From assembly GCA_009192285.1 (NCBI GenBank), contig WBVU01000003.1, positions 1,643,973-1,707,972 on the forward strand: a DNA stretch of 64,000 nucleotides. Reading direction: 5' to 3'. The stretch's first letter is position 1, and every line of letters begins with the position of its first letter. The DNA comes from Morchella semilibera. Its lineage: Eukaryota; Ascomycota; Pezizomycetes; Pezizales; Morchellaceae. The notes beneath the pieces are model-generated. The model was given only the letters and a program-made list of their open reading frames with translations, did no database searches and was not told the DNA's origin. The translations under genes and the position numbers were made by a program. This document shows positions 2,824 to 64,000 of the stretch, in pieces.

Positions 2824-5129
2824 AAATACTGATGAGAGTGTTATATAGGGGTGTTGTTGGATAGGTGGGGAGACGGTAAGAAGTAACTTCTGTTTGTTTA
2901 GACTTAGACGTTCAGGGCAACAGTCTCGTGACTTGACAGAAATGCGTGTGTCTTGGCATCGTGCATGTATGGCATTGCTCGTGCGTATGCCGATCTCTTG
3001 CACGACGGGATGTCCATACCTTCTCGCCAGTGGCAGCAACATTGATGGTGATGATGATAAGTATTTTTCTTTCTTTCTTTTTTTTTTTTTTTTTTTTTTT
3101 TCTCTCCTTTTGCCGAGGGAGAATGGGGTCAGCAAGGTCATACAATTCGGGGCTTTGAGTTATGTTGCAGTTGGGGTTCCTTGGTTGCGGTGGTGGCTTG
3201 CGGGGGCTTTTTTGGGCGGAATTCCGACGGTCTGGTTCGGTGAAACTTTAATCCAACCTCTGGGAGCGGCTCTTTTCTGTGCCGCTGATTCGTTAATCTC
3301 AACAACGTGTGCCCAGCTGCCGCGATATGAGTTCCCCAGGCCACATGTTCTTTTCATGCGCGCGTTTAAGTAAATGTGGCCGTACCTGGGGGGGGGGGGT
3401 GGGGGGTACATTATACAGAGGTAATGGCAGCTTCTACCCTAGGATGGGATGCATACTGCGGTACAGTAGGAGTAATCCGATCCCGTGTCTGCCATCTCGT
3501 CCCTTATATTTTTATTTTTATTATTTTTTTTTCTTTCCACTTTGACCAACTCCTTGGTTTCCGTGCTCCCGACGGCAGAAGTGCGTATTGTCACGACGTA
3601 TTGTCTGCGCTGCCCGGGGTTCTCCGGAAACGTTATTTTACTAGTCGTGATTCAAATCGCGGGTTCACATCCCTTAACACGCATCTTGAGATTACCCGGT
3701 TTGACAGGCAGGGTAGGGTATTGGGTTTATTTCACTACATCGGGTAATCATGCGGTGAGTGATAAGTTGTGAGCCGTGACACTAAACTACATGTGACTAT
3801 ATGTACATGTATCCATGTGCAACCCTCCCCTGTCGCCCATGCAGAAAGGAAACAACCCTAGCCAAGAACAAAAATAGGGAAGAATACATGGGAGAGCATG
3901 GGTTACGTGTAACGTAAGGGGGCCCTGCCCTATGTACCGACAACAACAACAGGTGTTAATTCGTGCATGGCTACGTGTATCACACCTGCTTCTGCTGCTT
4001 CTGCTGCTTCTGCTGCTGCACAGCAATCGAAGCGAACAATTAATGATCCATTACATGATGTTGTTGTGACCGGTACCGATGCCACTGTCTTTAGAGTGCT
4101 ACTAGCACTGGCAAATTTAGTTCCCAGCATGCCTTGCCATGGTGTTACGTTACTTACATGTACTTTGGTGTTCGGCGTGAAAGAGGCATAGCAAAGCTTA
4201 AAGGATACAGTATCATAGTAAAGTATGTACGGCGGCCTAGGGATTTAAAGAGTATATTACAACCAAGAAGATTTTATCACCTCAATGGGCTGAAATGGTC
4301 TTTAGAATTGGTCTACTATCACGTAGCGACTAAGAAAATTCGAAAAGCAAGCGACGGGATACGTACAAGGTGAAGAAGTTGGGGGATGGGTGGTGGCAGG
4401 GAGACGCTTAATTGCGTTCCTAGTAGTACTGCGGCGTCCTCAATAGACTGGTGCATGTCCTTGAATATAAACCTCATTACCACAGCAACATTTACCACCG
4501 ATCCAAAGAGACAGAGTGCCAGGTATCTCGCCTCGGGATAACAAGCAAATCGGTGTTTTAGTGGGCATACCCCCCCACATGAAGCCAACGAAATCCGATG
4601 ACTAGCCTACATTGTTCGCCCTAAACCGGGAGGGGAGTACTACTAGTGTAGATACGGTAGCTATAGGGCACATCATAGGGAGTTAATCTCTCGAATTCGA
4701 TTGATTTTATTCATTAAGCATGTAGTTTCCCAATTTACACGTATTACACCGGCTAATAACGATATATACGTATACTTGTATCTTAACCTCAATTTGCATA
4801 TCTTTCCACGAAGGGTATCCAACATCAGGGCATATAGGTATGGATCGAGAGGGCCTGAACAGCTGGGGCAGATCCTGAGAGGCAGACGTGACTCGATACG
4901 CCTCTTCCTCAATTCAATGGGTGCCTGAACTATACCGGTCTCATATGTCAGAGTAGCTTAAGTGACAGCTTATATAATTTAGTGGGGACTCATAAAGATA
5001 TAAGCGATAAGAAATATGCTAACAAGGTAGTAAGGGGCAGTTAAAGAACTTTGAAGAGGGTAGACTAGCTAAAAGAGAAACTCAAGGGATATAACTAGAT
5101 GAGTTATTAGGAAAACCGACACCCCCCAA
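2824..5129. other. Intergenic region 2.3 kb
   Basis: Spacer between the EVE gene 5' end and the esterase 3' end. It holds poly-T tracts near 3080-3102, an 11-G run at 3388-3398, an imperfect TTCTGC/CTG repeat at 3986-4020, one variant copy of the RTCAY-N5-RTCACTCG motif (3756-3772, minus) and one TACATGTA (3804-3811). The short ORFs present have no recognisable domain and I do not support them. Confidence 0.5.
3986..4020. repeat. CTG/TTCTGC microsatellite
   Basis: Imperfect hexanucleotide repeat (TTCTGC)n ending in CTGCTGC, in non-coding DNA. Confidence 0.75.
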
Positions 5130-6889: not shown

Positions 6890-8720
6890 GCTGTGCTGTG
6901 ATGTGGTTTGAAACTCTGTGTTCTCTGTTTTGGAAGCTTCGTAAACTGGTTTAACGATCTAAATGTTTTGATGCTGATATATACCGTAGTTGGCTATCAT
7001 AGGCGTACTAAAGCTACTGAACTCTGGGGTCGAATGAGAATATATATACCTTTTAGTTCTTTCCTGGTCGTGCTACTTATTCCTGGGTTCTATGAAATAC
7101 GGGAATAGATGGACATCATTGCCACACCTCGTATTCAAGATGTTTGATATCTGCCGTTCGTCTTGGCGCAGCATCTAACAGTCATAAGGTTTTAACCAAT
7201 GCGCCTTGGATACCACTTGTACACATGTACTACATTTGAGATTACTATTCACCAGAAATGACCTCCAAATTGCGATGGCTGCAGGTTCCAATTGGTTATC
7301 TAATCAGAGCAATAATCATATGTATGTTGTGCCTATGACCGCGAGTATATCAGAATATGTTCTCCCCGTTCTTCTAGGGCGAAAGTGTCTTTCTCGTTGG
7401 CCTAGAAATCGACTTTTAGCTTGAGATTGATGATTCAGGGTCTCGGGTTAAGGCTGTCCCCCAAGAAGTTAGCACGCCCACCAAGGTAAACCGAGCCGTA
7501 CTTTCACGGAACTCTCGTTGGCTCAGGTTTCACGACACTGCCTTACACAAGGCTGAATGACGGGTACGGGATGTTATTAGTCAGGCGCCGCGGGTGCCAA
7601 GACCGAGCCTAGGTCGATCAATCATGATCATTGATGTTGCACGGAATAAATACATACGTATGTGTTACACGTGTTGCGTGGTGTTTTTTTAGAATATTTG
7701 TATGTCTAGAATGCCTTGTGGTAGGAGGAAAGAATTATGACCAATGATATAGCAGGCGGTATGGGGCGAGTGATGATTGATGATTGATGCCGGTTGGTGT
7801 TCGGCCCATAGACTATGATCGCAGTGTATAACCCCCCTAATATCATTAGTATAGTATTCATGGCTGAGTAGACGACGTAGTAGTTTGGCCGTTTTATAAC
7901 CTGATTAATTCTCTCGATAGTACAGAAAGCCCATGAGGAGTGACTGATATGGCAGTACCGGTATTCGGGGAAGCAGCCGCTAGGCGCTGATTACGGTTTC
8001 TACTCTACTGATACCACTGGTACACGTATATCTTTTCCAGTATCCGTGGGTTGGGGGGTTTTCCCTTTGAGGCTCCTAACTAGATCAAGGTGGGTTCAGC
8101 CTTAGAGTTGTCTCACACACTGCATATCGTATCGGGGTGATGCGAGACCACTAGACAATTGTAATCTCCAGTGTAAAGTGCATTTTGTGCCTTATATCTC
8201 ATGAGATTGAATTCGATAAAGCTATTGGCAGCGAAATGGCCGTAATTATAGTCGCGGTGATCTATAACATCTAAATCTACATGATTCCCAAATTAAAGCG
8301 GCATTTTTATGGTGTAAATGTAGGATGTCCGATATTCGATTCGATTGATGTAGGAGGATTGGGTACGAGCCTACAATAATCAACTTCGGATTTCTAGATG
8401 GGGTTAGATTGTCGATCGTACCTACGCACTCGCTTGTGCTTCGGGGTAGGAGAAAATGAGAAGACGTCACCACACTGCCAAGGTTGCGTGAATTGTGTCT
8501 TCTTACTTATTCTCGCCCCCGAATACCGCAGTCTTTCACCGTCTCTTGGCGAATACTGCCAGTTGACGATTCTGAACAGGGATTCCAAGTATGGCAAGAA
8601 GCAGCCAACCTGCGAGATCTCCGGGGAGTATGCATGGGCATGAGGCCGAGGTTCCTATTGGCCGAGTCAGAAACTAAATTCCAGGCCCGGCCCCTGTTCC
8701 TACAATAATTCTACCCTCGC

Positions 8721-8811: not shown

Positions 8812-10396
8812 ATTATATAACTACATGTATGTATTTAATCACCTGTGAACATGTCCCTCACAATATATAGAATAGGGGGCAGAATTTTGGCGAGTGGTCA
8901 AAAATGATAAAAGGAATATCATCTGTGTAAAAAGCCACACCGGTCTAGTTGGCACTTAGGCGGGTAGCATTTTTCGCCAGACCATAGGAATTTCTGGCGC
9001 GAGTCGCCGGGGAGGGAGGGAGGGTCTGGGGTTTACAACTCATAGAACAGCCACTGGCATAAACTTATGGATGAATCGTGACTGCGAAGGCACCGCCCGG
9101 GGAGACTTTGCGTTCGTGATAGATCATCGAGATCGGGATCGATCAATTGATCAAGAATAGGCCCTTCAATGCCACTCGATTCTCACATGGGTTTGTAGTT
9201 TCAACTCTAGCTAGCTAGCTCTAATAATTAAAGGGCCTGATAATTGTTGTGGGTACTGATTGGGCAGATAAGGCGCAGGGCATAATACTTATGCTGTGAT
9301 TTGGCCGTTAAATATAAGTATATATACTTGTATGTATAGTTCTTGTTCAAAAGTCCTGGGACAACGCAACTGCGAGTTGCTACGGGGCTTGTCCCGGGAT
9401 TTTTGACACGGAGTTATATATATACAATCACTCACCGTCACTCGACGAATACATGCATATACTACATGTGCAGCCGCGTGCGAAGAGTTTTGGCACCCTA
9501 CTATATTGAGTCTGTCCATGAATTATAGTTCGCGAACAGACCTTTTAGCCAAAAGGGGCTATATAATGCCAATATAGTCCACCAGTGGGAATTTCATCAC
9601 CGGCCGGTGGCAGCTATTTTACCACCGGTGTGAAACTGTTGGTCAGCATTTATATTATACCGCAACAAGGTCTGAAATTCAGCTTATACCACCGTTGGTG
9701 GGGTTACTTTTGACACATTTACCGCTCCATATACCGCTCCATAACTGGACTCTTATTCACTAAATAGATGCGCCAATATACTCAGTCGTTAATTAAAAAG
9801 TCGGAATTTTTAGCAAGCTTTTGGTTGCAACGATATCCGACTACTTAGTTAATGCGTGAGTATAATCGAGTAAATGTATTTGTTTACATATATACATGTG
9901 TGTATGCACCGGTATACGTATCACAGTATTAAGGGATAACACATGTGCGTGCGTGCGTGTGCCTTGTGTGTAAGTATATCTTATCATAATATACTAAGGG
10001 CCTCGAAGAGTGATGCAACCGCCTGAGATTGGGTGGGGTCTGTGAATTCGCAACCACCTTAACTTCTTTCATTTAGGTGCATAAGTATGTTGTTTTCCTT
10101 ACCACCAAATATTGTTGCTTCGTTAAGGCCGCCAAAGTTAGGCCGCATGTCGTGGGTTGAAATCGTGAGTGGTAAATTGAGTCGTTGCGTCACTTTCCGG
10201 AACCCCTGGGTACATTTAGTAGATCTATAGAATCATTGAAAAGTAGATGCCTGAAACGCGGCTCTAGAAATTTCCAATCGTTCACAATAATAGATATGAC
10301 GCAGTGTGGGACGAACCTGAACATGTTGCTTGCCTGAAAGGAACATCTCGCCCTGAGTCTTAAGAGCGTACTACCCACGAGGGTCTACTAGTCAAG

Positions 10397-10457
10397 TTTT
10401 TATCAATAGGACTTCGGTTGCTACAGCCATTACCTACCCCCGTCCTATTGATAAAAA
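10397..10457. repeat. Perfect 16-bp inverted repeat
   Basis: Arms TTTTTATCAATAGGAC (10397-10412) and its exact reverse complement (10442-10457) flank a 29-nt loop. This is the form of a very small MITE remnant or a strong cruciform. It lies about 580 bp upstream of the RdRP start. Confidence 0.75.
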
Positions 10458-11032
10458 TTTGGCAAGTACATGCGAACTTTGTCAACATTAATGAAAATAC
10501 ATATATATATAGACATTATACAGATAGAACTCAATATCTCAGACCCCTTGCTACCGTACTAGTCGGCATATTGAGTTGCAGCAACAATACAATTATAATC
10601 AATTAATCTCACTAGCCCCAACGTCAAAGAAAAATGTACTTTGGATAAACTTCTACAAAGGTTGTACGTACCTACATGTGGCCATCCGTTACACAAACAC
10701 CACTGCCCCGCAGTGGTTGCCTGAACCCTGCATAAACAAACATAACTTCGGCCATCGTAGCTGTTGAGGTAACGCGTAACAGCAGATAGTTAATGGTTAT
10801 ATAAACACAGAAAACTGCTGTCTATTTGGCAAGGTGTTCGTTTTAAAACTTCAACCAAGTCACTCAAGTGAGAATCCAGTATTTTTTTTTATGGGTGCTC
10901 AAATGCTGATTTCATGATCAGATAAAGCTTCCTACGGCCTACACACTGCCCTATACAAAAACCAAACCCGATATCTACAAGATACTTGTTTCCCACCCGA
11001 CCTAGGCCTGAGTAGGGCATAAAAATAGAAGA

Positions 11033-14820: not shown

Positions 14821-16672
14821 GGTTTGTAGTTTGGGATGTATGGGTTTGTTGACTGTTTTTGGGGGGGCTATTTCATTTTTCTATATTCATGGACGTATAT
14901 TGCATTTATTTTCGTTGATTCTTCTGTGGCCTGTATGAACTGGTGGGTTGAACTGTTTGGGATTAGGGTTTATTTATCTATGCTTGTTTTCTAGGAATAT
15001 ATTATTATTATATCTCCCTTTGTAATTTGAGGTCTTAAGCCTAAGCCAGGATACAGAATCCTATAGCTATAAGAACAAGGCATGGTCAGCCATACCCCGG
15101 CCCCCGGCCCGTATTTGGCATAGGAGATTGGATTTTATAATTAATCAATGAACCCTGGGAGGTATTGGATTACATGTAAGTATGTAGGTTTATATAGAGA
15201 ATGAGGTTTTTTGCGAGTGCGAGTAACCTTACTTAGAGCTAAGAAGCGAGTCGCAAAGATTTATATCTATATTAAAAGTTTAGACGATATATCGTCACCC
15301 AGCACCGCTACTTACAAGGCCTCAACTAGGTTTCTCGAGGCGCGCTCTTGATATGGTTATATGCAAACCTAGCTATATATAGCACTCCACCGCATAGGCA
15401 GTCTGCTCGGAGTTAATTCCAAATTCACGGGTCAAACTCCGCACGCCCCCGTCGGGAGGTCTATAATTGTATGCAACCGAAACGTATATAAGATACATGT
15501 AATATATATTAACCTAACTTCTTGCTATTCCCAGCTACGGACTACAAGAATTTGATCTTCCTGCAATTAAACTGGGCAGAAATTAAGAGCGTTAAGTTCC
15601 ATTTATACAAATACACAAGATCCATCGATATCGGGAGCTGCATGCAATTAATGAATAAAAAAAAGATAGAAATCGATACTGTGCAGCAAGTGTCCATGGC
15701 TTGGCGCCAAGTCATTCGAGTGATCTTCCATGTCTCGTTGAAAAACTTTCACTTTCCTGCATAATCGACCTAAGTAGTAACCATAAAGGGGGTGTGATGG
15801 CATCTGAAATGTGCATGTGCGCTCGGGTGTGTTGACCGGTGGTTTACTGCGTTGTGGCGTTTGAACAGAGGCAACATTTTACTTTTTTTTGCTAGTAACT
15901 AGTGCGCGACCTGCTTAACTAAACACGGTGGACGATATTATAAGCTTTAACAAACGTTTAGAAAAGGTTTACGTCCCGGGAAATATAGCGGATTTTTTCA
16001 CCGAAGGTGGGTCAAGCTTCATATCAAGAGTGACGGATATGGGTGTACATCATGATCAAGAACGGTGGATGCAGCCGGACTCGTATTTTAAATAGGACTA
16101 TAATATTGTTGGCCTCAGTGGCTAGCTATTAGACTTTAGGATTACAAGAGTTGAATTCCCCCTTGCTTACTCAATACTCTTCCGGACTTTGCTTGACAGG
16201 CGGAATATAGTTATTCTGGTGTAGAGTTTGAGGTATACGTTCATATCTTATCACTCGACCATATGAAACTGGGTATATGGCTTCTGAGATGACAGCGAGA
16301 CCGGATACACCATATAGGCACCTTATTCTATCCGAAAAGTAGCGATACAGTCAGCTAGCCAGACCTTAGAACCTAATCTAACCGAAAAGAATATCAATCT
16401 CGCCCCTTTCAATGGGAGCAACGATCTTACACAACCGAGGGTGGAGGGCGTTGTGGATGGCGGGGCTCCCATATACCATGACCTAGCTTGGTTGCTCATG
16501 CCTTCAATTGTAACTGCTGGGAAATTAGGGGCAAACCCCCACATCACACATTCTCAGGCCAAAGGAGTGCAAGAAAGCGAAAGGTTACGCGCCAACACGG
16601 TCGGCGAGATTATTAAAACCTTCATATTTACCACATTCATTCCATATATACAACACCGTACACCCAGAGCAC
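14821..16672. other. Intergenic region 1.85 kb
   Basis: AT-rich spacer between the RdRP 3' end and the uS8m 3' end (convergent). It holds two TACATGTA palindromes (15171-15178, 15494-15501), one strict bipartite motif (16241-16257, plus) and one variant (15717-15733, minus). No gene supported. Confidence 0.5.
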
Positions 16673-19594: not shown

Positions 19595-19642
<48 letters not shown>

Positions 19643-21298: not shown

Positions 21299-22087
21299 TC
21301 ATGGGGTGTCACTCGACGGTGAATGGGGACTAGCGCCGGGGTTGCCGAATGTTTTTGTGGAACAGAGAGGCAGGGGTCTCCCTTTTGGGTAACGCCTTTG
21401 CCGAGAAATAGTGGCTGGTTGGGTTCCGTGTGTGTAGGTCGGTCATGAGACGGTCATGAGGTATCACTCGACGATGACCCTCCACGTTCTGGTGGCTGTG
21501 GCTGGTGAGAGTACTATGAGTCGTATATTAGTAAGTGTTTAGATTAGGGTAAAGAATCCTACTGTCGCCAATCATATAACCAAATCTTTTGCTTCCCTGA
21601 CCAGATTCCGCTGCGGGTCTGCTCCTCCATGGAACCACTAATTTGTTGACGGATAAAAACCACGGGACAGATATCGTGGGCCATGTTGATCCGGATAATG
21701 GGCATCCCTTGGCAGATGACACGATGATACCACTTCGGGTTCTTAGAGATCGGCAGGGTGGTGATAATCTGGTCTCAACAACCCTGATGGTGCGGTGGGA
21801 AGAGCGAGGAAGAGGAAGAGGAAGAGGAAGAGGAAAGATGAGGAATTTATATTTAGCGAAGCTCTCACAACATCTCCTGATTCTATAAGCTATTGGGCTG
21901 CGTGGCCATGGCCTATTGCGAGTAAGCTACATGTAGCTACATAGTGGACTGTTATACGCCAGCGTTGCGATAAGCGCGCACAGACATGGTGCCACTTGCA
22001 AAGTTGTACCAGCAGGCTCGGGGTTCTGTAATGGTAACTTTTTTCAGGGGTTAGAAGGATGTGCGGGTACTCATAGGGAGTCACTCG
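21299..22087 (+). repeat. Three bipartite RTCAY-N5-RTCACTCG motifs
   Basis: Copies at 21299-21315, 21454-21470 and 22071-22087, all on the plus strand. The first two lie in related surroundings (GTGTGTAG..TCATG..CACTCGACG), suggesting a diverged local duplication of about 155 bp. See the motif-family finding. Confidence 0.7.
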
Positions 22088-24121
22088 GTCTGTGCATTAT
22101 TATCTGCTGGAGATGAAAGGTTACAACCACATATGGACTATATTTGCACAATATCTTGGTTCTAATTTCTTTTAACCGGTCTCTATCGGTTTGAGCCAAC
22201 TACATGTATTCCCCTGTGATCTAGCTGGCTGGCTAGCGCGGTTCTGTGGAAGCCCTGGAGCCCAGTGGATAGGCAGGCTATATGCTCAATCATGACGACA
22301 GTTGGAACTTTGTTGAATCAGGATGTTGCGTCCTCTAAACAGCTAGTTCCTTTGCTTCGGCCATTTCCGGGTCTAGCTAGGAGAGCCGGTTGCTCTTAGG
22401 AGTGGGCTGTGCGGGTTGCATACGGGAATGCACGCCATAGCTACATACATGTAGCTGTGGGGCGAAGACCGCCATATTATTGGATTCCATATATCTACAG
22501 GTAGCTCCACCGCCTGGCGATCATAGCATACCTCCGCATACCCGCTCCTGCCCCCTCCACACACATATGCTCGGCCTTGTATATGCATGCAGCTCCGTTG
22601 TACAGGATACGAGTCACGCAAGTAAAGAACCCGGTATAGAAAGAACACCATGCTACAATATACAGCCAAGGGCTGTGAACGTTTAGGGATTGGGTAAGCG
22701 GCACATCCAGCCCCGCTCGTGGGTACACAGGCAGAGTGCGGAGCCCACTGACTGACCAAGGCCTGAAGCCGCTTAATCTAGAGAGCCAGAGCTTGGCAAT
22801 TCCCCCGCCCAAGGTACACCTGTACATTCGTAGATCATCGAACGTGCAAAGGTGCAACAATATATGGCCAAACGAATCTAGATACTCACCTCCTCGCGTG
22901 CTGCCAGGGGTGGGGTTTCAAGCCGTAGACCAGAGTCAAAAGAAAGAAAACTCACCCGGCATGGCTGGCAATAGGTGTCAAAACGAGGGGAGTCTGTCTG
23001 GGGATCAGATGACAACATGAAGACGGGAGGGAGCGCACGGGTACGGGAAGGAGAAGACCCACAGGGGAGGGACAAGAACTTGTAGAAACAATAGGCCTAC
23101 TACAGAAGTCAGAAGGTCAGAATTCATCAGCAACCTGAGTTATTCCTACACAAGACCCCCCCCCCCCCCCTCTCTCCCCACACACACATCTAGGACCCAC
23201 TTCTTCCTCAAACATAATTCCCATGGCACCTAGGGTATGATTGGGGGTAGATGTCTCTTACCCATTGTTTGGGGCACTTGAATATTTTGGCCTACCCTGT
23301 TTATTGGCTGATGTGTGTGTCTATTTGCTTACGAAGAAGGAAGGGGGGGGGGTGGTGGTGAGTTTATATTATTTATGAGCTTTGGTGATGGTAAGGACTT
23401 TAGGTTCCGTTTCATATACTCATGTTTTTCTACCCCTTTTGTTTGTTTGTTTGTTTATGTGGGGGCTGGTGGTGGGGTGCTAAGTAGACTCGGGTTGATG
23501 ATAAGTGAGTTCGCGGGTGTTTGCTGAGGTTTGAAAAAACGAACCCGAGGCTGTCCGGGGCTATCTGTTTATACAATGTAGATGCTCTCTAACTTGGGGC
23601 GTTAGCTTTTTCACAACTACCCGCAAGAGCTGGCCTTTTTTGTACGAAGCTTTCGTATCCACGGGGCGGCCTTGACGAAAACAGAAACACAGATGTTTCG
23701 TCCGTACCTAATCCGTAAATATCTGTCACCGTAAACTAGTACGACTTATCATTTTCAGTTTTCGTCTGTCGTTATTCCACGTTCTATCAGCCCGCCCAAC
23801 CTCATCACCTCCCCTACCAGCATCAACAATCCATCGTCCCCGGCGACCAGGCACAGACTCTTCCCCTTCAGGGCTTAACAGATTCGACAGTCACGCCTTT
23901 TTCCCACACACACCCTCCCACACATCCCCCTCTCTGATTTGTGGGTTGCCTTGAGCGCCGTCACAACCCATCACTCGAACATTTTCTATCACTCGTTGTC
24001 CCCCTACCCCCTCCTACCCCCTCCTATCCCCACCTCCTTGACCACCCTCTCTCTATTTTCTTCTCTATTTTCCTCTTCTCATCTATCCAAAGCCCTCTAA
24101 AACTAAAACAAAAAAAAGGTC

Positions 24122-25316: not shown

Positions 25317-26796
25317 GGGAGTTAGTGGGCTAGTTGAGATGATTGGGTTGCGTTGAATTTAGGTTTGGGTTTGGAGGCGAGACGGGCTTCTTTTTTTTTT
25401 TAGGTTGGAACTAGCTGGGGTGTCCTTTTCTCTTCCTTTCTTTTCTTCCCCCCAGCTGCCCTAACTACATGTGTCTGTTTCTGTTTCCATTTCTGCACCC
25501 GAATCCTATTCAACCCCCTCTTCTAACCTTTAAAACATTCCTTTCTCTTCCCTTGTCTCTTCGTTTGAAGATTTTTTTTTTTCTCAATAACCAATACCCC
25601 CATTAACCTTAGCGTTCCTGTATCAATCAACCTGTCGCTAGGAAATAAAATGTCAGAGTAAATCTGCAGAAAACCCACTTACTCGCACGGCTGATACCAC
25701 AACCACATGCACACGCCCAATACCAGCTTGAAAGTGAGCCGATGTACTCAGTTACTCAAGAAATATCTACACAGCTTTGCAAAGAACAAGTGTTTAAATA
25801 CAAGCAATTAATGGACCCCTCGATCCACATCGGAAGCCCACTGAGTGAGTATAGTAGGGGGGCAACAACTGGAGACATAGCACAACAACAACAACGAGCT
25901 CCTAAAACCTACTGTTTATGTTATATTTTGAAATAGTATAAGGTAAAGTATATGGAACAGACTTCAATCGTGGTTTCATATACTATATAAGATGGTCGCA
26001 TATAAATGTGTACTGGACATATAGTCCCGGGCATAATAGTTGACTGCACACCCACTACAAAAAAAAGTATGCCGAGTGATACAGAGTGACGCAACCCTAA
26101 CCCTCCTGGAATCCTAATTCCTGATATCCTCACCCCCCCCCCCCCACAACTCAAAACCTCGCTACTAGTACCAACAGCAGCAACCAAAGGCGTAGATCTA
26201 TCCCAAATAACCGTATAAATTCCCGTCTCTAGACCACTACCTACCCCGCCGCTAGCTGCCCGCGCGCTACCTACTACCCAATCCTCCCCAGCCCACCCCA
26301 CCAGGCTACTAAAAAAAAAACTAAAGGTCGTAGAAAGTATATAAACACAAGAGAAGAAGAAGAAGAAGATATAGCCGAGCTAGTGTGGGGGAGAGGAGTA
26401 AAGATATGAATATAAGGTGATGGTGGTGGCAGTGGTGGAGAACTAAAATAAATAGATAAATAGATATGTAGAGGGAGGTAAAAAAAAAAGTATAATATGA
26501 TTTTAAGAAACACCATTTACCGATCCGCGCGGATGAAAGAAATATAATGAGAAAGCTGGAGCAAAACAGACAGACAGACATCAGAGGAGAAAGAAGAAAC
26601 AGAAGGAAGAGGAGCCCGCCGACAGGACAGAGGGAGAAGCAATAGCTACACAGCAAGAAAAAGCACAAGAAAGGGAGCAAGCCAGACCAGAAATCCAAAC
26701 CCAGCAAGAACAGCAAGCAAAAGAACAGACGCAAAAGGGACAAAAAAAGGTACTCAAAACAGCCCAACTCCGACCCAAAACCCACATTATCTACTA
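25317..26796. other. Intergenic region 1.5 kb
   Basis: Convergent spacer between the AT-hook gene and kinesin-5. It holds a 13-C run (26133-26145), one strict bipartite motif (26073-26089, minus) and purine-rich tracts (26340-26760). The purine tracts give long Leu/Phe/Cys-rich minus-strand ORFs that I regard as artefacts of composition. Confidence 0.5.
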
Positions 26797-44143: not shown

Positions 44144-44326
44144 CGAGTGATTCCCTATGACCGACCAAACACCCGCGATACCCAATGGTGTAATTACATA
44201 CATGTAAGACTGTGCTTGGCCCGGTACATACACATGACACACCGCACTCTACCCGCTGCTCTGTACATGTAAGTAGTTGTAACAACCGCATACTGCCCGG
44301 CCAGCGGGCCGAGTGATGGGGTGTGA
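44144..44326 (-). repeat. Two RTCAY-N5-RTCACTCG motifs bracketing two TACATGTA sites
   Basis: Order: motif (44144-44160), TACATGTA (44199-44206), TACATGTA (44264-44271), motif (44310-44326). The gap between motif and palindrome is 38 nt on both sides. Confidence 0.7.
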
Positions 44327-45817: not shown

Positions 45818-47437
45818 TTGATTCCCCGGTTAGTTCGTATTCTGGTGGTGATAATGATGATTGATTGGAGGGGGGGAGTAGATGAAGCCGTAGAGACGAA
45901 GGTATAGTGAAGAAGGTGTAGCGACGAAGAAGGTGTAGTGGCTAATGAAGGTGTAGGGAAGGTGTAGAAGGGTGAACGTGTCCCAAACCCTAACCCTCAT
46001 TCCTGAGATCTGAATGATTCACTCCAAAAGGACCCCTAATTGAGCTTGATTGGGATCTGGATAGGCGGCAAATATCAGGGTTATCGCCCAATCAGAAATC
46101 AGTCTGATATTTTCATACGGACTGGCGGTAGCATAGCTAGTATCAACCCCACCGCCCATTCCCCACCACACCATACCCGCCGGGAGCATCCAAGCTCCGC
46201 ACCTCGAACCCAGATTGACTAAAACCGGGCCAAATTGCCGCCTAGTTACGCATGTGCACTGTCCACCCCCGGGGACCCCGCGGGGCTAGAGTAGACCATG
46301 CCAGCCTTTGTAATGACCGGTACCCACGGCTCGAAAGGGTGACATCACCGATTTATGGTAGAGTAGGGTCTGTATGATGTACTGCTACGACCAAGATAAC
46401 CCCCGAACATGGAAGCCCGGTGCAATCACAGATATGTTCTACGCTACGGTGAAGGGTCTCGTCGGTGCACGGCACGGAACGGGTATGGTCCACAGCAGCC
46501 CCCCCTCCCGTGAGGTGGCTATATCTCCCCCCCCTCCTTCCCCACCGGGGCTGAGGTAAAAGTTAGTCCGGCTCCAAGACCGAGTGATACCTCATGACCC
46601 GCCCACACGTAATAATAATTCAGAGTCAATCATAGTCGCAACCACAAAACTCACAATTAAGCTCGCTCTTTTCTTTTTTTTAAAAAAAGGAATTTGGAAT
46701 TTGAATTTCTGCCTACACTAACAAACAAACAAGACCAGTCCACCAATAAAAACAAAAAGACATCTCAAGCGCGTAGGCACCCACCCCATCAGATCAGATC
46801 AGATAAGATAAGATCCGGACCGGGTGGCGCATTGGCGCTCAGTAGAGTCTAGTACTCGCGATAGATAACAAAAAACGTAAAACGAAAAGGAAGGACAGAG
46901 AGAAACTTTTTTTTTTTTCAATATACCGACCGGATGCCGGGCGGCGCTAGAAAGAAAAAGGAAGGGGGTAAAAAAAAAAAAAAAAAAAAAACTAGATCCA
47001 AAATTACTCAACAAATAGGAAAATCTGGACTAACCTCCCGGCCCCCCTCACTCCCCCCGTTTTTTCTCGGTTGGGTTAGAAGGCTGGGGCGGAGATGGAG
47101 AGGATCCCCGGAGCTGATCGGTTCTGTTCTGTTCCGGACTGGTCTGATCGGTCGATGCGATATCTCGTCCTGGTAAAAAAACCTCCCAGAGGCGTCTGTC
47201 TTACTTGATGAAAGATGGAGGGGGGAGGGAAAGAGGGAGGATAAGAAGGAGGGGAGGGGGACGGAGATGTTAAATAGCCAATAATACAATACGGTGGGGT
47301 GGGTAGGTATTGTATCCGGAAACTTTATATGGTGATCCAAAGGAGGCCGATGCGTGTGTATTCGATCCAGATATGTGTTTGATGTTCCAGAGGTGGCTTT
47401 TTTCTTAAGAAATGGCCGCGCCCATGGGAGCCGTAGT

Positions 47438-50049: not shown

Positions 50050-51826
50050 TTACTCCGAAGTCTTTGCGATCAATCCTGAGTCCTCAGTGACGCGCTGGGC
50101 CCACTCCCTGTAAACAGTAGCAGCTGGAATGTCAGCCTCGGTACCGTCCGTGTGACGAGTTGTGACTCAAACGAATGCAAAGGGAGCTCAGGACGGGGGC
50201 ACGTGTAGGGTGATATAGTAACGATGATGATAATAATACGAACCGGTACTCATCGCACGGCTGTAAAGATCGGGAGGGTATAATCATGGGGAAAGTGATG
50301 TAAGGATAAGGGAAAGGTACAAGGCAGTGGAAATAGTGGTAGTACATCATAGGCAGTAGGGTAGGGTCTGTATCTCATAGGGCGATATGAGTAGAATCGT
50401 AGCCAATCAAACCGACCGGCTTGTGATTCCAGTGTGAAGGGAAGCTCAGGGAGTCAGCCAGCCAGTAGCCAGCAGTCAGGCAGGCAATGCGTATAGTGAA
50501 AGTTCCTTTTTAGAAACCGCTATCGCGCTGCCCAATGCTTACTCTGCCTGCCAACTAACTACTCATCCCGGGCCGCTTGGGGCCTTGCAATGCCTGCCTA
50601 TCTTTCCCTTGCCCTATAGTCATTATGACTTCAAGGGACCTCTGTCATTGCAATTGCCTAGCGAGAGATATGAACAAGAGGGCAAGCAGGCCCCCCAAAG
50701 CCACAACACCCAGGCGAACCCGGTAAGGCTGCGCAGGGTAGGCCGGTGAGCACTCCCGGCCTACCAAAAGTGCCGAAATGAAGAGTAAACTGCCACCGGG
50801 GGAGAGGGGGAAAAAGAAAGAAGGAAAGAGCGCACTTACGTCCAACTCCCATCATACACCCTCCTCTTGCCTGCGATCCCAGCGAGCTCCAATGCCGTGT
50901 CCACGACCACCGCCGTCACCCCCGTACCGCACATTAGCACCTTTTCCACACCGGCGTCCTCACTGACGCCCGCGCCCACCAGCACGCCGCGGAGCTCCGC
51001 CGCGGCCCTCAACTTCCCTGTCGCCGGGTCCACGAGCGAGCTGAATGGGACCGAGATTGACCCGGGAACATGGCCGGAGGATAGACCTTCGCCCCATGAC
51101 GAATCAGCCCCATATCCTCCCCCCCATACCATATCCAAACCAACATCAGCAACTTACCTGGCCTTGGCTCTGGATCCACACCCTTAAACCTCCCCCCGGC
51201 CTCGCATCAATGACCTGGACCTTCTCCCGGTCCCCGTGCAGCGCCCACTCCTTGACATCCTCAAAGTCCGCAACCAACCCCTCATCCATGACCACATCAC
51301 CATAGACCTTCTCCTCAACCAGGTCCACCTTCCCGCCCACCACCGGTAGCCCCTCCTGCACCCAGAGTCTAAAGTTATCCAGCAAATGGACCTTTGGGTG
51401 CCCGAACACCTTGAGCGTCCACGCGGCCCTCGGGGCACTAAAGATCCCAAGTTCGGCAGAGTCATAAACCACAAGGGTATCCTCCTTCGTGACCCCTAAC
51501 TTCCCCATAGCGGCGCTAAAGACCGCGGGCGTCGGCAGCATGTGCGGGTAAGGCGAGTCGGGGTGCTTGATTGCGTCAAGGTCGAAGAAGCGTGCACCGG
51601 GAATTCGAGCAGCGGCGAACACGGACTGGCCAGTGTGAGGTGAATTCGGGAGGAACCAGGAGGCGCAGAGGGGGATGATGCGTGGATCGGGGGAGGTCGG
51701 GTGTGGGTTCGTGGTGAGGGCTGAGGCGAGGGCCCCCGGGGGAATGGTGAAGGAGCTGAAGGAGCGGGACATTTTTGTTGCGGTGGTAGTGAGAAGACGG
51801 GCACTGGTTGTGAGAAGGGAGGGCAT
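50050..51826 (-). CDS. TUM1: TUM1/3-mercaptopyruvate-type sulfurtransferase (tandem rhodanese); one apparent frameshift and a 732-nt intron
   Basis: Two-rhodanese-domain sulfurtransferase that in yeast passes persulfide sulfur towards Uba4/Urm1 for tRNA wobble thiolation. Exons: 51826-51158, 51086-50840 and 50107-50050; 324 aa. The first domain runs from about residue 25 (inactive type) and includes IPGARFFDLDAI and LVVYDSAELG. The second begins at VQVIDARPGGRFKGVDPEPR and has SGHVPGSISVPFSSL and the catalytic loop CGTGVTA. It ends VYDGSWTEWAQRV. The frame slips by one at the G6/C6 run 51192-51197; a seventh G restores the conserved RFKG. Met 51772 is an alternative start after a short Ser/Thr/Arg-rich N-terminus that could be a mitochondrial presequence. 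The last exon was found by matching TEWAQRV across an unusually long intron (50108-50839). Confidence 0.87.
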
Positions 51827-53582: not shown

Positions 53583-56500
53583 ATGGCGACGCTGTGCGGG
53601 GCTTTGTCCGTTCGTGAGGGCGGTTGCGGGTGCCCCAGGACGAGGTCTTTTCTTTTCGGTTCACGAAAGCCGTGTAGAGCTAGGACGTGAATAAATTGAC
53701 CATCAAGAGCAGAGTGACCAGTAGTAAGCAGTTCAATCAATCCAAAGACAAGAAAAGAAGGCCGAAATCCAAATGCCACATTAACCCAAGTCCACACCCG
53801 ATTCCGTAACTTGTAAGTAATATCAATGATATGAGCCGACTCTGTATGTGCACCCTCCCCGGGAGTGAGAGAGGTGACCCGCCTCGAGAAAACCGCCCTG
53901 TTCAGCCCTGGCCGGCAGGGCGAATATATAGCCATGCGGTAGGAGCTTGAAACTAGACAGCCCGGCCACACCACTTTGTCCTTCTACGCGCCCTACGAGT
54001 GGTGGCTGCTAGTAGTAGTAGTCTTTGTGTGAATAGACCACCCCATACATAGGGCGCTACCCCCCCCAGCTAGCAGTATCATAGTTAATATATACGGGCT
54101 AGTAAGCACCGGTACACGCCGTTAAGTACGCCCGTGGGTCGTATGTAGGTTTCTAAATAGAATAGTCAGGTATCTCTGTCATCACGAAAGGTTTTAATTG
54201 GATGGGTAGCTGCCCCAGATTTCTGTGGTCTGGCGGGCGGGCTACAGCTGTCAGTAGACAAAGAATCGGGTGTGTTAAGGGAGACGGCATACACTGGCAT
54301 ATACATGTAAATTGGCAAACCTCAATCACTATATAATAACCCTCTGGCCGAGATCAATATTTCTTCTCTTCCAAAACTACAACCTCACGCGAGCAAGGAG
54401 GGCCCAGCATGCCGCGCAGCGGCAGGTGGCCCCGACTGCATGCGGAGATGTTTATCCCACATCATTGCATAGGACTGTAAGTTTTCTGGATCCTTCAGTG
54501 TCGGTGGTTTCTCGAACTGACGATTACATACATATGCGGCCGGAGGCCGCTCCTCACTAGTATGTATATATATCCGTAGGGCCCGAAAGACCTAACTAGC
54601 TGGCGATAACATGGCCAAGCCATCATTTCCAGCTGCGGCGGGTACCCGGGTGGTGCTGGCGCCGTCCCTGTGCTAGGGCGTAGCCAGCGATGTCAATCCA
54701 CCCGCGGGCCAAATTCCTGCCCTGCACGGCCTAGCTCAACCAGGATAAGATGTAGCTAATCCCTCTCCCCCTCCGCGGCGGGGGTCGCCCACATACCGCG
54801 GCCCCCTGGATGCTCTGAGAACTACATACCCGCTGGCGGTGTCTCGTTCCCGCTGGTGTGGAGGCTTGCTTGGGGCGGCGGGTAGGTATAGCGTATGTAG
54901 CTGCTGGCTGAGGCCGGCATACCCTAAGGGCCCCGGAGGGCCTAGCTCCATAGCTAGGGCATGCACAGATCCGGTAATCTCGCCCATGAGACCCCGCGCG
55001 CCCGCCTCCATGAGGATTTCCGGTCCGACACGTACCGTCAGCAAAACACTTGAGACGCGCCAGGCCGCAGCGCGGTCCCCGTTACCAGCTGCGGTTTCTG
55101 GCTACGTTGCGGCCGGCCGGCAAGGGTGCGTCACAGACTATCACTCGGCCCGCTGGACCACCGGGTGTGGGGGCACAGCTGCTGGTGTACGCGGTGAGCT
55201 TCTCCCTAGAGTAGTGTAAGAGGTGCTGAGCTGTGTAGTCCAGCCCGGGATCCTGGAACAGCCCATAGGCCAATCCATCCCAGCGGGGTTTGGGGCGGGC
55301 CGCCTCCCCAACGCAGATGGGGGCGGGGCCACCCAGCAGACAACAACACACTAAAGCACCCTACCTAATACAACCTCAAACACCTTCTGCGCCGAATCCC
55401 CTTCCTGACCCCACTGCCAGACGCCAAACAGTCCCGCGGTCGTAGCAGGCTCTCATGTGCAGTTCCCAGCCTGCCCCGTCCATTCCGGTGCAGTTGCATA
55501 TGGGGTAGGAACCGGCCCCAACCGCTGGGATATTTCTTGGTAGCTTGGAGGTTGTGAACTAAAAGAGGCCCACAGAGCTAGCGCTAAACGTGCCCAAAGC
55601 CCACATCCCTCAGCAAGAAACCAACCCCCCAGATGCCCTGTAAGCGTAGTCCCCATAAGATTGAGAGACCACCGCCACCAGGACATGAGGCAGCGGCGGA
55701 TGTGTTCTACACGTTGGATACAGACCAAGCCAGCAGCCCAAGGATCTACTTGGCGCCTTGCTAGTGCCCAGATCTCCATGCTGCAGTTGGTTCTCTCCTT
55801 TCTTTTCTCCTCCCCTGCGGCCCAGGGGCTGGGGTCTAAGACGGGCCGCCCGAAACGGTCATAGATATCTGTAGATGCGCCTCCGGACTATATGGCCACG
55901 GTCCGTCTAGCCCCTACCTTTGCCAGGACTATAGGTATGGCGCCGGACTATCCCTTGGAAGGATGAAAATTGTCAAATTCGCGACCTGGACCGTGCACCA
56001 CTTAGTAGGGGAGTTATATTGCTTGTTATGGTAAATACCAACAAACGAACCAAACAAGAATTTTCAACAGTTACCACACGAGGTTACTATTAGCTGAAAG
56101 TGGTAGGTCGCGAATTTGACAAGTTTTATCCGTCCAAGGGATAGATATCTAGGGTCATGGGCGATCACTCGGTTTGGCGACAATGTATTGCGGGGACTAA
56201 TATTGGGCCATAAGCGCGGGTTGTGTTCACTGCAGATATGTATTTATAGATAGCAATGTGGGACTGTAGATGTCTATGCAGACCTTAGACATTGAGCACC
56301 TATGCCAAGCTGCAACCCTAGCCCATGGTTAGTAGTCGGCCCCGAATACCTACTCAAGACCGGCCCCAGCCTAGTGCTGACCTCCGAGACTGCCCCGCTG
56401 CGAAGGTTGGCCTGGCTGGAGCTGGGGTTATAGTCATGTCATTTACCAAGACCTATAAGCCACCCACGGTCCTGGAAACGTCCGTCCAGTCTTACCAAGG

Positions 56501-57929
56501 CTACAGGCCGCCCGGAACTCCTACAGCCGGGCTGCAAGTAGTCCACACAGCTGAGGAACAGCCCCAATGCATCGCACTACATCATACAGTGGGGGAAACT
56601 ACAGCTAGTCCAACACTCTCAAATGACACATTACCCCAACACCACGCGCCGATTTTGATAGCACGGGCCAACCCATTGGGTGAGAAACAGTGCTTGGAGC
56701 GGGTTAAGTAGCTATGTACATACGAAATAAACATGTAAACGGCGCCAGGCCCCCAGGTGAGTTTCTGCCAGGCCAGCGGCAAGTATTCATGAAACGGGGT
56801 GGAATTCGAAGCGAGGATTAAAAGTAGAATATTCATCCAGTAGCATAGCCCGGGCCGATATATAACCCCGAGCCGTGTTGCCCCGTTGGTTGGTGGGCCC
56901 CAGAATGCAGTGTGTGACCAGTCCGCGGGGCCTGGCGGAAGTCCTGCATCCTGCATAACCGATAACCCGCCATACCACCCCAACAGAAAAAGTTAGTCCA
57001 CCAGGGGCAGGGACCGAACCCACCCCCATGCGCGGCTGGGGAACCCCCTCCACCACGACCACCCCATTTCCATCCCACACCACAACCACATGCTGGCGGC
57101 AGCCCACTTTGCTCCTTTAAACCTGGGGTCCGAGAGTCCCCGGGCGATTACTTACAGAAAAACATTGGGTCATGAGCGCAAGACCCATCCCCAGGCCCTG
57201 AACAGGGAGGGGGAGCAAGGAACGGGAATGCCCCCCTTGAGAACACCATCTATCAATCAATCCCCACAATACACTCCCCCTACGCCTACCAGGGTAAAAG
57301 ACAACCACCTTCCACCCCGAGCCAGGCCCTGACGGGCACTACCGGGCACTACACACCCGGGCCCTACAGCGTGGTTCTTGGCTGGTGGTCCATCCCCACC
57401 CCACACCCCGCCCCGCACGCAAGCAGCGAAGGACATCCCACCCGCATGAACGGGCTCAACAAAACCCAACCCAACCCAACCCCACCCCGCCCCACCCCAC
57501 CACCCCCCGCCCACACCCCGCCGTTTGAACACCACAGCAGCGAGTGATAGCCCATGACTGTACCTACCAGGGGCAGAGATGTAGCGGTCTATGTATGAGG
57601 GACAGCCTATCATTACCCCGGTGCCTACATGTACTTGTGTACGGACATGTAGCTTCCCGGATTGTTGGGTATAACGTTACGTAGTCCGTACCCATCCCCT
57701 ACCTACGCGTATACGGACAGCTTGGGGTCTCGGGGGTTCCCACGCCCTAGCCAGACAACATCAATCCACGCCACCTCACCACAAAATCACAAAAAATCAC
57801 TCGATCTATTCCACTTCCTTCCATCTCAAAGCTAGTCGTACAGTACTATAAAGCTTACAAAAAATCCTGCTACTTCTATAGAGCCCTCCCCCAATACAGT
57901 ACCGTCTATCTATAGCCGCCGCTGCCGCT
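53583..57929. other. Accessory spacer of 4.3 kb
   Basis: No supportable gene. It holds a MITE (55947-56145), four strict bipartite RTCAY motifs (55131 plus, 56155 plus, 57541 minus, 57787 plus), TACATGTA sites (54302, 57626) and CCCAACCCAACC-type C-rich tracts (about 57466-57515). Many GC-rich ORFs occur on both strands without recognisable domains. Confidence 0.55.
55947..56145. mobile_element. MITE with ~39-bp terminal inverted repeats
   Basis: Left arm starts near TATCCCTTGGAAGGAT (about 55949) and runs to GCGACCT (55987). The right arm (about 56105-56143) is its reverse complement with four mismatches and an exact inner 17 bp (AGGTCGCGAATTTGACA). TA dinucleotides border both ends, consistent with a TA target duplication of the Tc1/mariner type (inference). 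The roughly 110-bp interior is AT-rich, non-coding and partly self-complementary. A bipartite RTCAY motif starts about 10 bp beyond the right end. Confidence 0.85.
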
Positions 57930-59877: not shown

Positions 59878-61023
59878 GTTTACGGTGATGTTGGAAGACG
59901 GTCTGGAAAGGCGCGTCGTGGGAGTTATATACGCATGGATCGTGGCTGCAGCGGTTCGAGAGCACTAAAGTAATCACGGATAACGCAATCCGTGATAGAG
60001 CTGCGGGAATACTCAATTGAGTCAATTGACTGAAATCCACAGAAAACAGCACCTAGGGTCTTACTAAGGTCAGGGGTTAAAAGTGCCCAATGCCCAGTAG
60101 CGAATAAAGCTGGCCAATCGCCTATTTGGCCGCGAACAAGGCTTGCTGATTACTGGATGCGCCAAAATATCAAGGATAGTAGCATGATAAAGCGAAGACT
60201 GGGCTATAGGACTGAGGGGCAATCGTCCCAAGTAAGTACATGTATCTTCTATCCTTCAGTATTCTTCACATACGCGTAATCACAGTCGCTTAGTCACACA
60301 TCTATAAAACCCTCTCGGTCCTGGACAGAGAACTCGAACAAGTTAATGATCCATAGCCAAAGTACGCATACGTACTGAGACCCCGGCGGACGATAAGCGG
60401 GCCCGTAGTACCGGCACCACTTTAACACTACCCCTCTAGAGCATCGTCACACACAAGGCACTGCTATGCCGTCTAACAAATATCATTTGCGGGAGACTAC
60501 AGTGTTTTACGACAGGCGGTAGTTAGAGCCAGAGTTACACCTCCGGCCGCTAAGTTGGGTTGGAACTTAGAGGCTGTAACATATAAAGGCCGGCTTTCAG
60601 CGGAATCACACAATGTCACTCGGGGAGGCCCGATGGAAAGTGCCGCAGCCCCAACTGAGGCAGTGGAACCGCAAAGTAAAGAAGGGTCACCAGGCGGTAA
60701 AGCTTACTACCGCCATAGGTAACTCGAGAGACTGTATGTGTACATACAAAATCAAATATATGAGCTACACCGTTTAACCAGCCGTTAAGCCTGGCGATTT
60801 TGGGAGCGTTGACCTGGCCTGGTGACTACATGTAGGGGACTTCTTAGTAATATGTAACCCGCAAATGAGAACTGTTTATCTAAGCGATTATATAGGTACA
60901 TGTAATTATGTATATAAGTAGTCAAAAGGTAAGGGCTAGGGTGCACACATTAACGCAGTTGCCATAACGAAGAGCCCATATATCGTCCGTCTATCGGAGC
61001 TTTGCCAGCTGCCACCTTGGTTC
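59878..61023. other. Intergenic region 1.1 kb
   Basis: MFS promoter (left part) and spacer. It contains TACATGTA at 60237, 60827 and 60897 and one strict bipartite motif at 60606-60622 (plus). No gene supported. Confidence 0.5.
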
Positions 61024-61305
61024 CTACGTGCCCCTCCCCCCGCCCATCTCCCTCAGCGTCACCTCCCACGCCCTCACCTCCGCCACAATCCGCCGCCTCG
61101 TCTCCAAGCGCACACCCCTGCTCTGCGCGCGCTCCGCAATCTCCATGTCGGCGTTCGTGACGGGGGCGCCCAGCAGCAGCTGCCATATGCTGGGGTCACC
61201 GCCGCCTATCTCGCCCGCCGCGAGCTTGTCGTACTCCTGCCAGAGGTGCTCGATGTGCGTGTGGATCATGGCGGCGTGGACGTGGTTGGGGTTGTGGATG
61301 GACAT
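61024..61305 (-). CDS. Small hypothetical protein
   Basis: Single-exon ORF of 93 aa from ATG 61305. The sequence (HNPNHVHAAMIHTHIEHLWQEYDKLAAGE, then PVTNADMEIAERAQSRGVRLETRRRIVAEVRAWEVTLRE) is a plausible pair of amphipathic helices and unlike the low-complexity shadows around it. No family recognised, no signal or TM segment. It could be a real small protein or a fragment of a longer spliced gene; no upstream exon was found. Confidence 0.45.
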   Translation of the reverse strand: MSIHNPNHVHAAMIHTHIEHLWQEYDKLAAGEIGGGDPSIWQLLLGAPVTNADMEIAERAQSRGVRLETRRRIVAEVRAWEVTLREMGGGRGT

Positions 61306-64000
61306 TGGTGATGGAGGAGGGGTGTATAATAGAATGTATAGGTTGTGTTGTGCTCCCAAAATTATAGTTGGGCGTGTTTTTAGATGTGATATGGTACCGT
61401 TTTTATGGTTGTATGGCTATTGTGAACCCACCCCATTCATGAACGTTCCCGAATGAAGCACATTGTTCACGAAGAGCATAGCTACAAGTATTATATTGAT
61501 GACCAGATATACCGTTCACCGGCATACATGAATGGCGAGCAACCCCCCCCCCCCCCCCGCGGATACCCTGAGTAGTCTGTTCCTGCCTGGAGATAGCGCG
61601 GTTGAAACCGGTTGGGATATAGGACCAGGCATTTATACGCACGCTCAAATATCAGTAGGTAAATACATACAGGTCTTAGGACTGGAGGTAGATAATATAT
61701 CTACCATCTATCTCGAGTAGAAACCACATACCGTCCCCGCCAGTGAGCTACAGACACTGCTAGAAGGTATTGGCTACTGGAACATTCCATAGTAGCTCCG
61801 CGCCCATTGAAGGGGCCCTTGTTCGGAAACCACTCCAATACCAGCCTACCTAGCCTTAGGGCCCACCCCTCCTACGCCGAGAGGAGCGGTACCAGTAGCC
61901 CAGACGGAATGGAAGAGACAGGTACTCCCTTCGGGTGGGTGTGAGGAAATGTTCACCTGTAGGTAACCCAGGGCTGAGTGATGAGCCATGATCACATATA
62001 AAATGCACGATTTTTGCCAAAGAAATGTTTCATAACCCTAACCTGCTACATCAAAGATTTTCTCTATCCATCGCCGGGGAGGTTTTGTGTACCAGTGTAC
62101 CCATGGTGGGTGGCATGACAGGCTGGGTTGGGTTGGGTATGGGTATGGGTAAGGCCGGACGCTCATATTGACGTGGGTTGGGTTGGGTGAGTCTTCAATC
62201 AAACCCAGGTTCACCCATTCACAATTGAGCACACATTTAGGTTCGGGGTGCCTTCCAAATCTTGTCCGAGTTAATCTCACCCCCTCTGTGGCGGGCAGCG
62301 GGCCAGGCCTGACACTACGCCCCCCCCCCCCCCCGCCAAAAGTGTTGTGCTCTTCTCTTCACCGCTGAGCCGGTCCTTGGGTGTTCAGGTGTTTGGGGTG
62401 CTTTGGTTTGGGCCGCCTTGTACCTTCTAGATAGGACTATATATATATATCTGCATGCACTGGCTGGGCATAAGCTGGGAGGGGGGTGATCACAGACCCG
62501 ACCAGCTGCAGTCCTGCTTAATTGCTGCACATTTATATAGTTTGGGCCTAGCTAATCTACAACACAGCTATAACAAAACGGCGTCAACATACCGACGTCC
62601 CTGTAGTGTATGGGGTTAGTGTGCCGCTGCATTGATTGTTGCCGCTGACAAGACAATGGTCACGATGCTTCGGGGTCTCGGCGGGTGGCCTTCGTGGTGT
62701 ATCGGTATTTTATATACCGCATTGGTTCTGGCCGGGCGTATCTATAGAATCGAACTCCACCTTTATCGCCCTCTGTGTTGGGACTTGGAGGGACGTATTA
62801 GTAGCTTGGGGGCGAGTCTTGTTATTACATAGGCTCCTCCGCATGCTGCCGGCGCGGGTGTGGAGTATCGCGGTGACGTGACCGCCCGCCCGCAGGTGCG
62901 GCCCAAAGAAGCCCATAGGCGGAGCCAAAAACCACAATTAAGTCTCGGTTCTCAAGGAATACATGCAGACCACACTCTCCAGCCGGCCGGGGGCTAGCTA
63001 TAGTTCCACAAGCCCTGCAACTGTAACCCGGGTCAGGCCTGGATGAGATGCCCTTCGCCGCTTGGGTGCGGGGCCGTTGACAAACTACATACGTATAATG
63101 TGTGCAGGCCTAGTGCTATATTCCGGCGGGCCCGTCCATGAGACAGCACATTGGGCGGGGCGGATATATGTACCCTGCACTTTAACTTGGGGCGTACAGG
63201 TCATGCCAAGCCACAGCGGTCCTGACTTGCTAACCGGCCCGTGTTTGGACCCTCAATGTGCTTTTGGGGAGAAATGGTGCCTGGCGGTCGGGGGCGTTGG
63301 ATGGATTTCGTGTTTTGTGGGTAGAGTGGTATTATTAGGGCGTAAAATCATCATACGTTCCATAGTCTCGTACCAATTAACCCCCGGCCTACAGACAGCT
63401 TGCTGCCGTAGGGTACGTCTGGATGCACATCCTCCCGACAGGCCCCGACTCTACGCCGGATTAAAGCAAGCCCGAGTCCCTATGTAGCTTCTTAGTTAGG
63501 GTGCTAAAACATACCCGCCCCCGGCCCCCACGCCTCCTGGGTGCCAAAACATGTCTGGTTCCCACTTTACATACAACATTAGCGCCCCGGATCCGAGGCA
63601 TGATCTTAGCACGAGACTCCAAACCAGATATAGAAATCGGACACATCTTAGCACCCCAACTCCCAACTCCCAGTGCCAACCAACCAGGCCGGATCATGAG
63701 CCATCACTCGCCCGCCCCGCCAACCCGGGCAGACCCCAGGGCACCCGCCAGACCTGTCTTTGCGGTCCGTAGGCTCCAAGCTGCCCTACAAACAGAGAGG
63801 TGAAGGATATCATACGCAGTCACAGGCCGTCACTCGCCGGCAATGCAGGGTGGCCACTAACTACTAACCGCCTAGCGCGAGCGCGGCGGCGGCGGCGGCA
63901 CTAGTCGCTTTGGGAATGAGGGTAATGTAACTTTTTATCTGTGATCTGGGGTTTTGCGACTGGGATTGCCATTGGTAATTTGGGGGTAAGGTGTTTGGAG
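61306..64000. other. Right-end accessory spacer
   Basis: No supportable gene. It holds C16 (61543-61558) and C15 (62320-62334) runs, GGGTTGGGTAT repeats (62125-62190), two strict bipartite RTCAY motifs (63694 and 63820, plus), one variant (61975, minus) and a short GGC repeat at 63881-63900. Confidence 0.5.

Follow-up and report, generated by a model that had tools for sequence, protein, structure and literature searches.

A rigid bipartite motif at about 7,500 non-coding places in the genome of Morchella semilibera, a probable recognition site of one dedicated DNA-binding protein

The sites of CTCF are long and asymmetric, occur in thousands of copies and lie mostly outside exons. The CENP-B box (NTTCGNNNNANNCGGGN) is a 17-bp asymmetric sequence read in two halves about one helical turn apart, and its binders are tandem helix-turn-helix (HTH) proteins derived from transposases. 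The sites of Abf1 are concentrated at promoters. In the available portion of PMC12305957, the Abf1 site of budding yeast is given as CGTNNNNNRNGAB, i.e. VTCNYNNNNNACG. The available portion of PMC10246852 restricts CTCF to metazoans and calls the characterisation of fungal boundary elements incomplete. The present work concerns a bipartite element in a 64,000-nucleotide stretch of the Morchella semilibera genome (contig WBVU01000003.1, positions 1,643,973 to 1,707,972; C19:1643973-1707972 in the numbering used here), hereafter called the window. An original prediction made from the sequence of the window described this element as the dispersed motif TCA-N6-RTCACTCG. Its refined form, RRTCAYRRRNYRTCACTCGV (17 letters, about 23 bits), is probably the recognition site of one dedicated DNA-binding protein, kept by selection at about 7,500 non-coding sites, and this protein would most likely be a genome-wide chromatin organiser.

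The genome searched comprises 56,756,124 bases in 23 contigs, including contig C1 with 7,341,407 bases, and all counts come from this one genome in one assembly. The exact pattern TCAN6RTCACTCG is found 7,506 times (3,785 and 3,721 by strand), with a mean density of about one site per 7.5 kb, whereas the reversed pattern is found 32 times (19 and 13). The 8-mer RTCACTCG is present in 11,207 copies, and 67% of them have the TCA partner at exactly N6, which by chance would be expected for 1.6%. The same 11,207 copies should give about 175 pairs at any other spacing. The genome-wide controls, which are sums over spacings, amount to 713 for N0-5 (119 each) and 4,113 for the 24 spacings N7-30 (171 each). 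Single spacings were tallied in the window and in a 294-kb sample composed of the window and 23 stretches of 10 kb, with duplicates dropped. In this sample, shortening the spacer by one base leaves two sites, and lengthening it by one or two bases leaves one and none, respectively. Other spacings are thus at or below chance, and there is no sign that a change of spacing is tolerated.

Chance or base composition as the cause of this abundance is ruled out by the reversed-pattern counts and by dinucleotide-preserving shuffles of the window, 100 of which produced a mean of 0.05 exact sites and a maximum of one. The half-site alone was rejected as the unit as well. RTCACTCG lacks the exact TCA partner in 3,701 of its 11,207 copies, and bipartite sites account for most of the excess of the 8-mer, because the reversed 8-mer already occurs 1,989 times. 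An unbiased scan of all pentamer pairs at gaps of 0-15 in the 294 kb returns two families that dominate its highest-ranking pairs, one of them being the bipartite motif, so the site could be recovered without the earlier description.

Some properties of the assembly and of the sample affect these numbers. Contig pairs C9/C10 and C12/C13 share sequence (100% identity over 9.95 kb in both stretch pairs compared), and C21/C22 are probably duplicates too, with parallel domain matches on both. Some chromosomes seem to be present twice in the assembly, and the number of distinct sites would therefore be somewhat below 7,506. In the sample, stretches L017 and L020, duplicates of L016 and L019 with no site in either, were dropped from most counts. 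Eight 3-kb loci chosen as site-bearing (L001-L008) do not enter the counts of exon overlap, mismatches and distances, and some of them are represented among the 58 flanked sites used for the motif logo. The stretch L029 was chosen from a site-rich region, so the density of the sample is not representative.

In the window, all 18 exact sites reported earlier were recovered with the same positions and strands. Here TCA accompanies 18 of the 21 copies of RTCACTCG at N6, and the spacings N0-5 and N7-14 give 0-2 pairs each. The statement that nearly every RTCACTCG has its TCA therefore describes the window well and the whole genome, with its 67%, only in part. The three one-mismatch copies reported before are all real, but their number is six. 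When zero or one mismatch to TCAYN5RTCACTCG is allowed, the window contains 24 sites, vs 0.84 expected:

3756..3772, minus strand, one-mismatch site (last G is A)
7767..7783, minus strand, exact bipartite site
8891..8907, minus strand, one-mismatch site
9428..9444, plus strand, exact bipartite site
15717..15733, minus strand, one-mismatch site (first T is A)
16241..16257, plus strand, exact bipartite site
21299..21315, plus strand, exact bipartite site
21454..21470, plus strand, exact bipartite site
22071..22087, plus strand, exact bipartite site
23961..23977, plus strand, exact bipartite site, first of a pair with 18-bp period
23979..23995, plus strand, one-mismatch site, second of the pair with 18-bp period
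26073..26089, minus strand, exact bipartite site
44144..44160, minus strand, exact bipartite site
44310..44326, minus strand, exact bipartite site
46581..46597, minus strand, exact bipartite site
50149..50165, minus strand, one-mismatch site
55131..55147, plus strand, exact bipartite site
56155..56171, plus strand, exact bipartite site
57541..57557, minus strand, exact bipartite site
57787..57803, plus strand, exact bipartite site
60606..60622, plus strand, exact bipartite site
61975..61991, minus strand, one-mismatch site (last G is A)
63694..63710, plus strand, exact bipartite site
63820..63836, plus strand, exact bipartite site

The logo R R T C A Y R R R N Y R T C A C T C G V was derived from the 100 sites listed first and from 58 flanked sites. 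The search pattern fixed TCA, R at position 10 and TCACTCG in advance; Y at position 4 was not preset. A pyrimidine follows TCA in all 18 exact window sites, as had been noticed before, and in all 100 listed sites; L037:1162, with A, is an exception. The five spacer bases, described originally as varying freely, are not quite free: purines occupy positions 5, 6 and 7 in 83, 76 and 70 of the 100 listed sites, and position 9 is T in 55. At position 10, A prevails over G (79 to 21), and base 18 is seldom T (3 of 58 sites). Among the 100 listed 17-mers, 96 are distinct; one version, TCATGGGCTATCACTCG, was found 26 times across many contigs.

Sites can also be packed closely. Short tandem arrays with a period of 18 or 19 bp are located in L001 (from position 1501) and at C17:238378-238413. 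The 18-bp period is observed in L001 and in the window pair 23961 and 23979, where the second window copy and the later L001 copies carry mismatches. Local base composition around the 58 flanked sites revealed nothing clear. Within 150 bp of them, the hexamers TAGTTG (22 vs 5.9) and CACGTG (10 vs 1.1; both strands) appear enriched, which may be due to chance, since thousands of hexamers were tested and the flanks overlap.

Comparison with Abf1 reveals the same general plan, namely a bipartite site with an RTCAY-type half-site, then a 5-base spacer, and fixed spacing. However, the second half is RTCACTCG in the morel and ACG in Abf1, and the morel sites, with their approximately 23 bits, are not promoter-centred in the sample. 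The Abf1 core RTCRY-N5-ACG does not describe the morel element: RTCAY-N5-ACG is absent from the top pairs of the unbiased scan of 294 kb, to which this comparison is confined, no genome-wide count of RTCAYN5ACG having been made. The Abf1 family (PF04684) has no match in the genome, a search in which 14 control genomes were equally silent. The element shares with CTCF sites its length, asymmetry, thousands of copies and non-exonic location, and differs from them in sequence. Like the CENP-B box, it is a 17-bp asymmetric site with two halves about one turn apart, but its sequence is unrelated, the letters NTTCGNNNNANNCGGGN being absent from the logo of the 100 listed and 58 flanked sites, and most of its copies are dispersed singly rather than arranged in satellite arrays. 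In its abundance and its placement outside coding DNA, the element is similar to general regulatory or insulator sites, but it would fall under the full definition of none of these families. No fungal element of matching form was found among the literature matches listed, judged by title or the start of the abstract; this includes the matches listed for Morchella regulatory motifs, for general regulatory factors of Pezizomycotina and for CENP-B and domesticated transposases. In the available portion of an Aspergillus promoter paper, CGAGTGA occurs in a primer only (PMC4046813).

The position of the sites relative to genes was determined with exons and genes from a home-made predictor run on the 294-kb sample, whose models are incomplete (42-58 genes). 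None of the 60 sampled sites is located in a predicted exon (exon fraction 18.6%, P = 4e-6), and this holds at two looser predictor settings, in agreement with the earlier claim that all copies lie outside coding exons. Distances were counted for 55 placed sites, excluding three in L026, where no gene is predicted, and two inside a predicted L030 intron. At the loosest setting, the 1-kb regions upstream of predicted genes hold 5 sites, vs 10.9 expected, and the 1-kb regions downstream of their ends hold 14, vs 12.3 expected. There is no excess near predicted gene starts among these 55 sites, which are a small sample. A chromatin organiser is favoured over a regulon activator, because the sites avoid exons yet are not concentrated at gene starts. 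Depletion of sites from divergent intergenic regions was considered and rejected: the first count gave 0 of 29 and the strict setting 0 vs 4.7 expected, but the effect is gone at looser models (10 vs 9.5).

Alternatively, the site could be an ordinary promoter element, bound by a conventional transcription factor that acts from upstream on a large regulon. Constraint of the type expected from protein binding would agree with this, as would sites near predicted starts, e.g., the window site 23961, which precedes a predicted gene by 144 bp. Nevertheless, the shortage of sites in the 1-kb regions before predicted genes speaks against it, and the site is very long and very numerous for a regulon, so that an ordinary promoter element appears unlikely.

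Of 45 pairs of neighbouring sites, 31 lie on one strand (P = 0.008), as do 25 of the 38 left when pairs less than 400 bp apart are removed (P = 0.036). Among the 55 placed sites, 34 agree in strand with the predicted gene closest to them, and 21 are opposite. Both tendencies are suggestive only. Together with the asymmetry of the site, they could speak for a function in RNA, i.e. as a terminator, a processing signal or a promoter element of non-coding RNA. This is, however, a very improbable explanation, considering that the strands are balanced genome-wide (3,785 vs 3,721), orientation to genes is weak and both sides of genes are used.

Constraint on the site is reflected in mismatch counts. 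Perfect sites number 60 in the 294 kb, those with one mismatch 29 and those with two mismatches 50, whereas the reversed pattern gives 0, 5 and 53, respectively. In the whole genome, 12,188 sites show zero or one mismatch, vs 683 in the reversed control, and one-mismatch sites above background number roughly 4,000 vs 7,506 perfect ones. Perfect copies thus exceed near-copies despite about 30 ways of being one mismatch off. Purifying selection on the contact positions would be the simplest account of these numbers. Comparison by blastn of the flanks of 60 sites, up to 400 bp on each side, returned no in-register alignment apart from overlaps between neighbours and short matches confined to the site; L011 and L027 have a repeat in common that is offset from the site, and a single 24-bp match was found in another place. 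The earlier observation that flanks do not align is thereby extended to these 60 sites. The two results named in the original prediction as contrary to it were other spacings being as common as N6 and flanks of a single transposon family, and neither was obtained.

Another explanation would be spread of the motif by itself, for example through biased gene conversion or repair, in the manner of uptake sequences in some bacteria, with no selection for cell function. The very many near-perfect copies in non-coding DNA and their uneven density could be produced in this way. There is, however, no known route for it in fungi, and conversion would carry flanks along, yet both spacer and flanks are unrelated; there is accordingly little chance that such a process accounts for the sites.

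A few sites are located inside repeats. Two pairs of repeat copies on C1 (L040-L043, near 2.155 and 2.856 Mb) contain sites identical between copies, which says little at mean column identities of 97% and 93%. The differences between these copies are mostly G/A and C/T, the pattern expected from repeat-induced point mutation. Remnants or terminal parts of a single transposon or repeat family are an extremely unlikely source of the sites: despite the thousands of near-identical copies, the sites within repeats and the 44 matches to a Tc5-type transposase domain in the genome, such an origin is ruled out for the bulk of the sites by the 60 flanks unaligned in register and the 96 of 100 distinct 17-mers, and nine sampled stretches are site-free, four of them repeat-rich (L014, L018, L024, L028).

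With respect to what had been proposed at first, a binding site under selection is the reading that these data appear to support best, given the rigid spacing, the conserved contact letters, the unrelated spacer and flanks and the avoidance of exons. The alternative proposal, a mobile or chromatin system, is not supported in its mobile part, since no flanks in register were found among 60 sites; its chromatin part is plausible only, the sampled sites not being concentrated at promoters. The data fit a rigid, high-specificity protein-binding site, which would be neither a transposon relic nor a composition effect. We infer that a protein binds it, that it is one protein and that its role concerns chromatin.

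Two DNA-binding modules of one protein, or a head-to-tail dimer, would read RTCAY and RTCACTCG. The half-sites form a direct repeat with a 10-bp period, and the two contacts would accordingly face the same side of the helix, separated by one turn. Because the spacing is rigid, the two reading heads would be firmly joined, either in a single two-module protein or in a head-to-tail dimer. Purifying selection would keep about 7,500 sites in non-coding DNA on both strands, and the protein would act as a general regulatory, barrier or insulator factor rather than as an activator of a regulon. A more specific version, in which morels have evolved an architectural protein of their own that binds this rigid bipartite site at about 7,500 places and, as a fungal equivalent of CTCF, establishes chromatin boundaries or anchors loops, is a tentative possibility.

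Several points weigh against a genome-wide organiser. The statement on promoters is based on 55 sites and on incomplete home-made models of 42-58 genes. Density is uneven, from 0 to 7 sites per 10 kb with 9 of 23 ten-kb stretches free of sites, and a uniform organiser predicts otherwise. Taken by themselves, the mismatch counts are equally compatible with a recent burst, at about 0.4-0.5 changes per site; selection is favoured over it, because a burst would copy spacer and flanks, and these are unrelated. Finally, among Abf1-, CTCF-, CENP-B- and TALE-like proteins, no candidate was linked to the site.

The genome nevertheless contains domains of the types considered. The 44 matches mentioned above belong to HTH_Tnp_Tc5 (Tc5/CENP-B-type HTH) and represent candidates only. 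One open frame, L030:8655-9959 (minus strand), combines HTH_Tnp_Tc5 and DDE_1 domains, as a pogo-like transposase or its descendant; the 10-kb stretch around it includes five bipartite sites that match exactly, and the closest of them is 3.3 kb from the frame. A five-finger C2H2 query gave 29 genome matches, the longest of about 410 bp, and no obvious long C2H2 array was found with this query, although introns split arrays, so one could be missed. The single-finger C2H2 model (PF00096) has at least 22 matches (150 of 201 candidates scored). TALE homeodomains, whose site has a TGAY core, are represented by one match, C14:782200-782292, again a candidate only.

The other dominant family in the unbiased pentamer-pair scan of the 294 kb is the palindrome around TACATGTA. 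This second over-represented motif is found at 22,206 places genome-wide, vs 3,723 for its reversed pattern, and its flanks extend the palindrome. The 294 kb contain 121 perfect, 212 one-mismatch and 1,341 two-mismatch copies. One of 111 placed copies lies in a predicted exon, vs 23 expected, and 31 lie 500-1500 bp beyond gene ends, vs 11.8 expected. The two motifs are not co-localised in the 294-kb sample, where 13 bipartite sites have a copy of TACATGTA within 200 bp, vs 9.2 expected (standard deviation 2.7). A weaker palindromic pair, TGCAT-N6-ATGCA and ATGCA-N8-TGCAT, gives 14 counts each (both strands), vs 0.76 expected in 294 kb. The window itself also includes an RNA-dependent RNA polymerase (RdRP) gene with RdRP and fungal RdRP PH-like domains (11012-14461, plus strand), a kinesin motor gene (28817-30055, minus strand) and a gene for a CAF-1/HIR1-type beta-propeller (32232-33317, minus strand).

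That a site of about 23 bits is kept with almost no changed letter at 7,500 places implies a strong and broad influence of a protein on the genome. The motif is a ready bait for finding this factor in a group of edible fungi, and identification of the binding protein could reveal how morels arrange their chromosomes.

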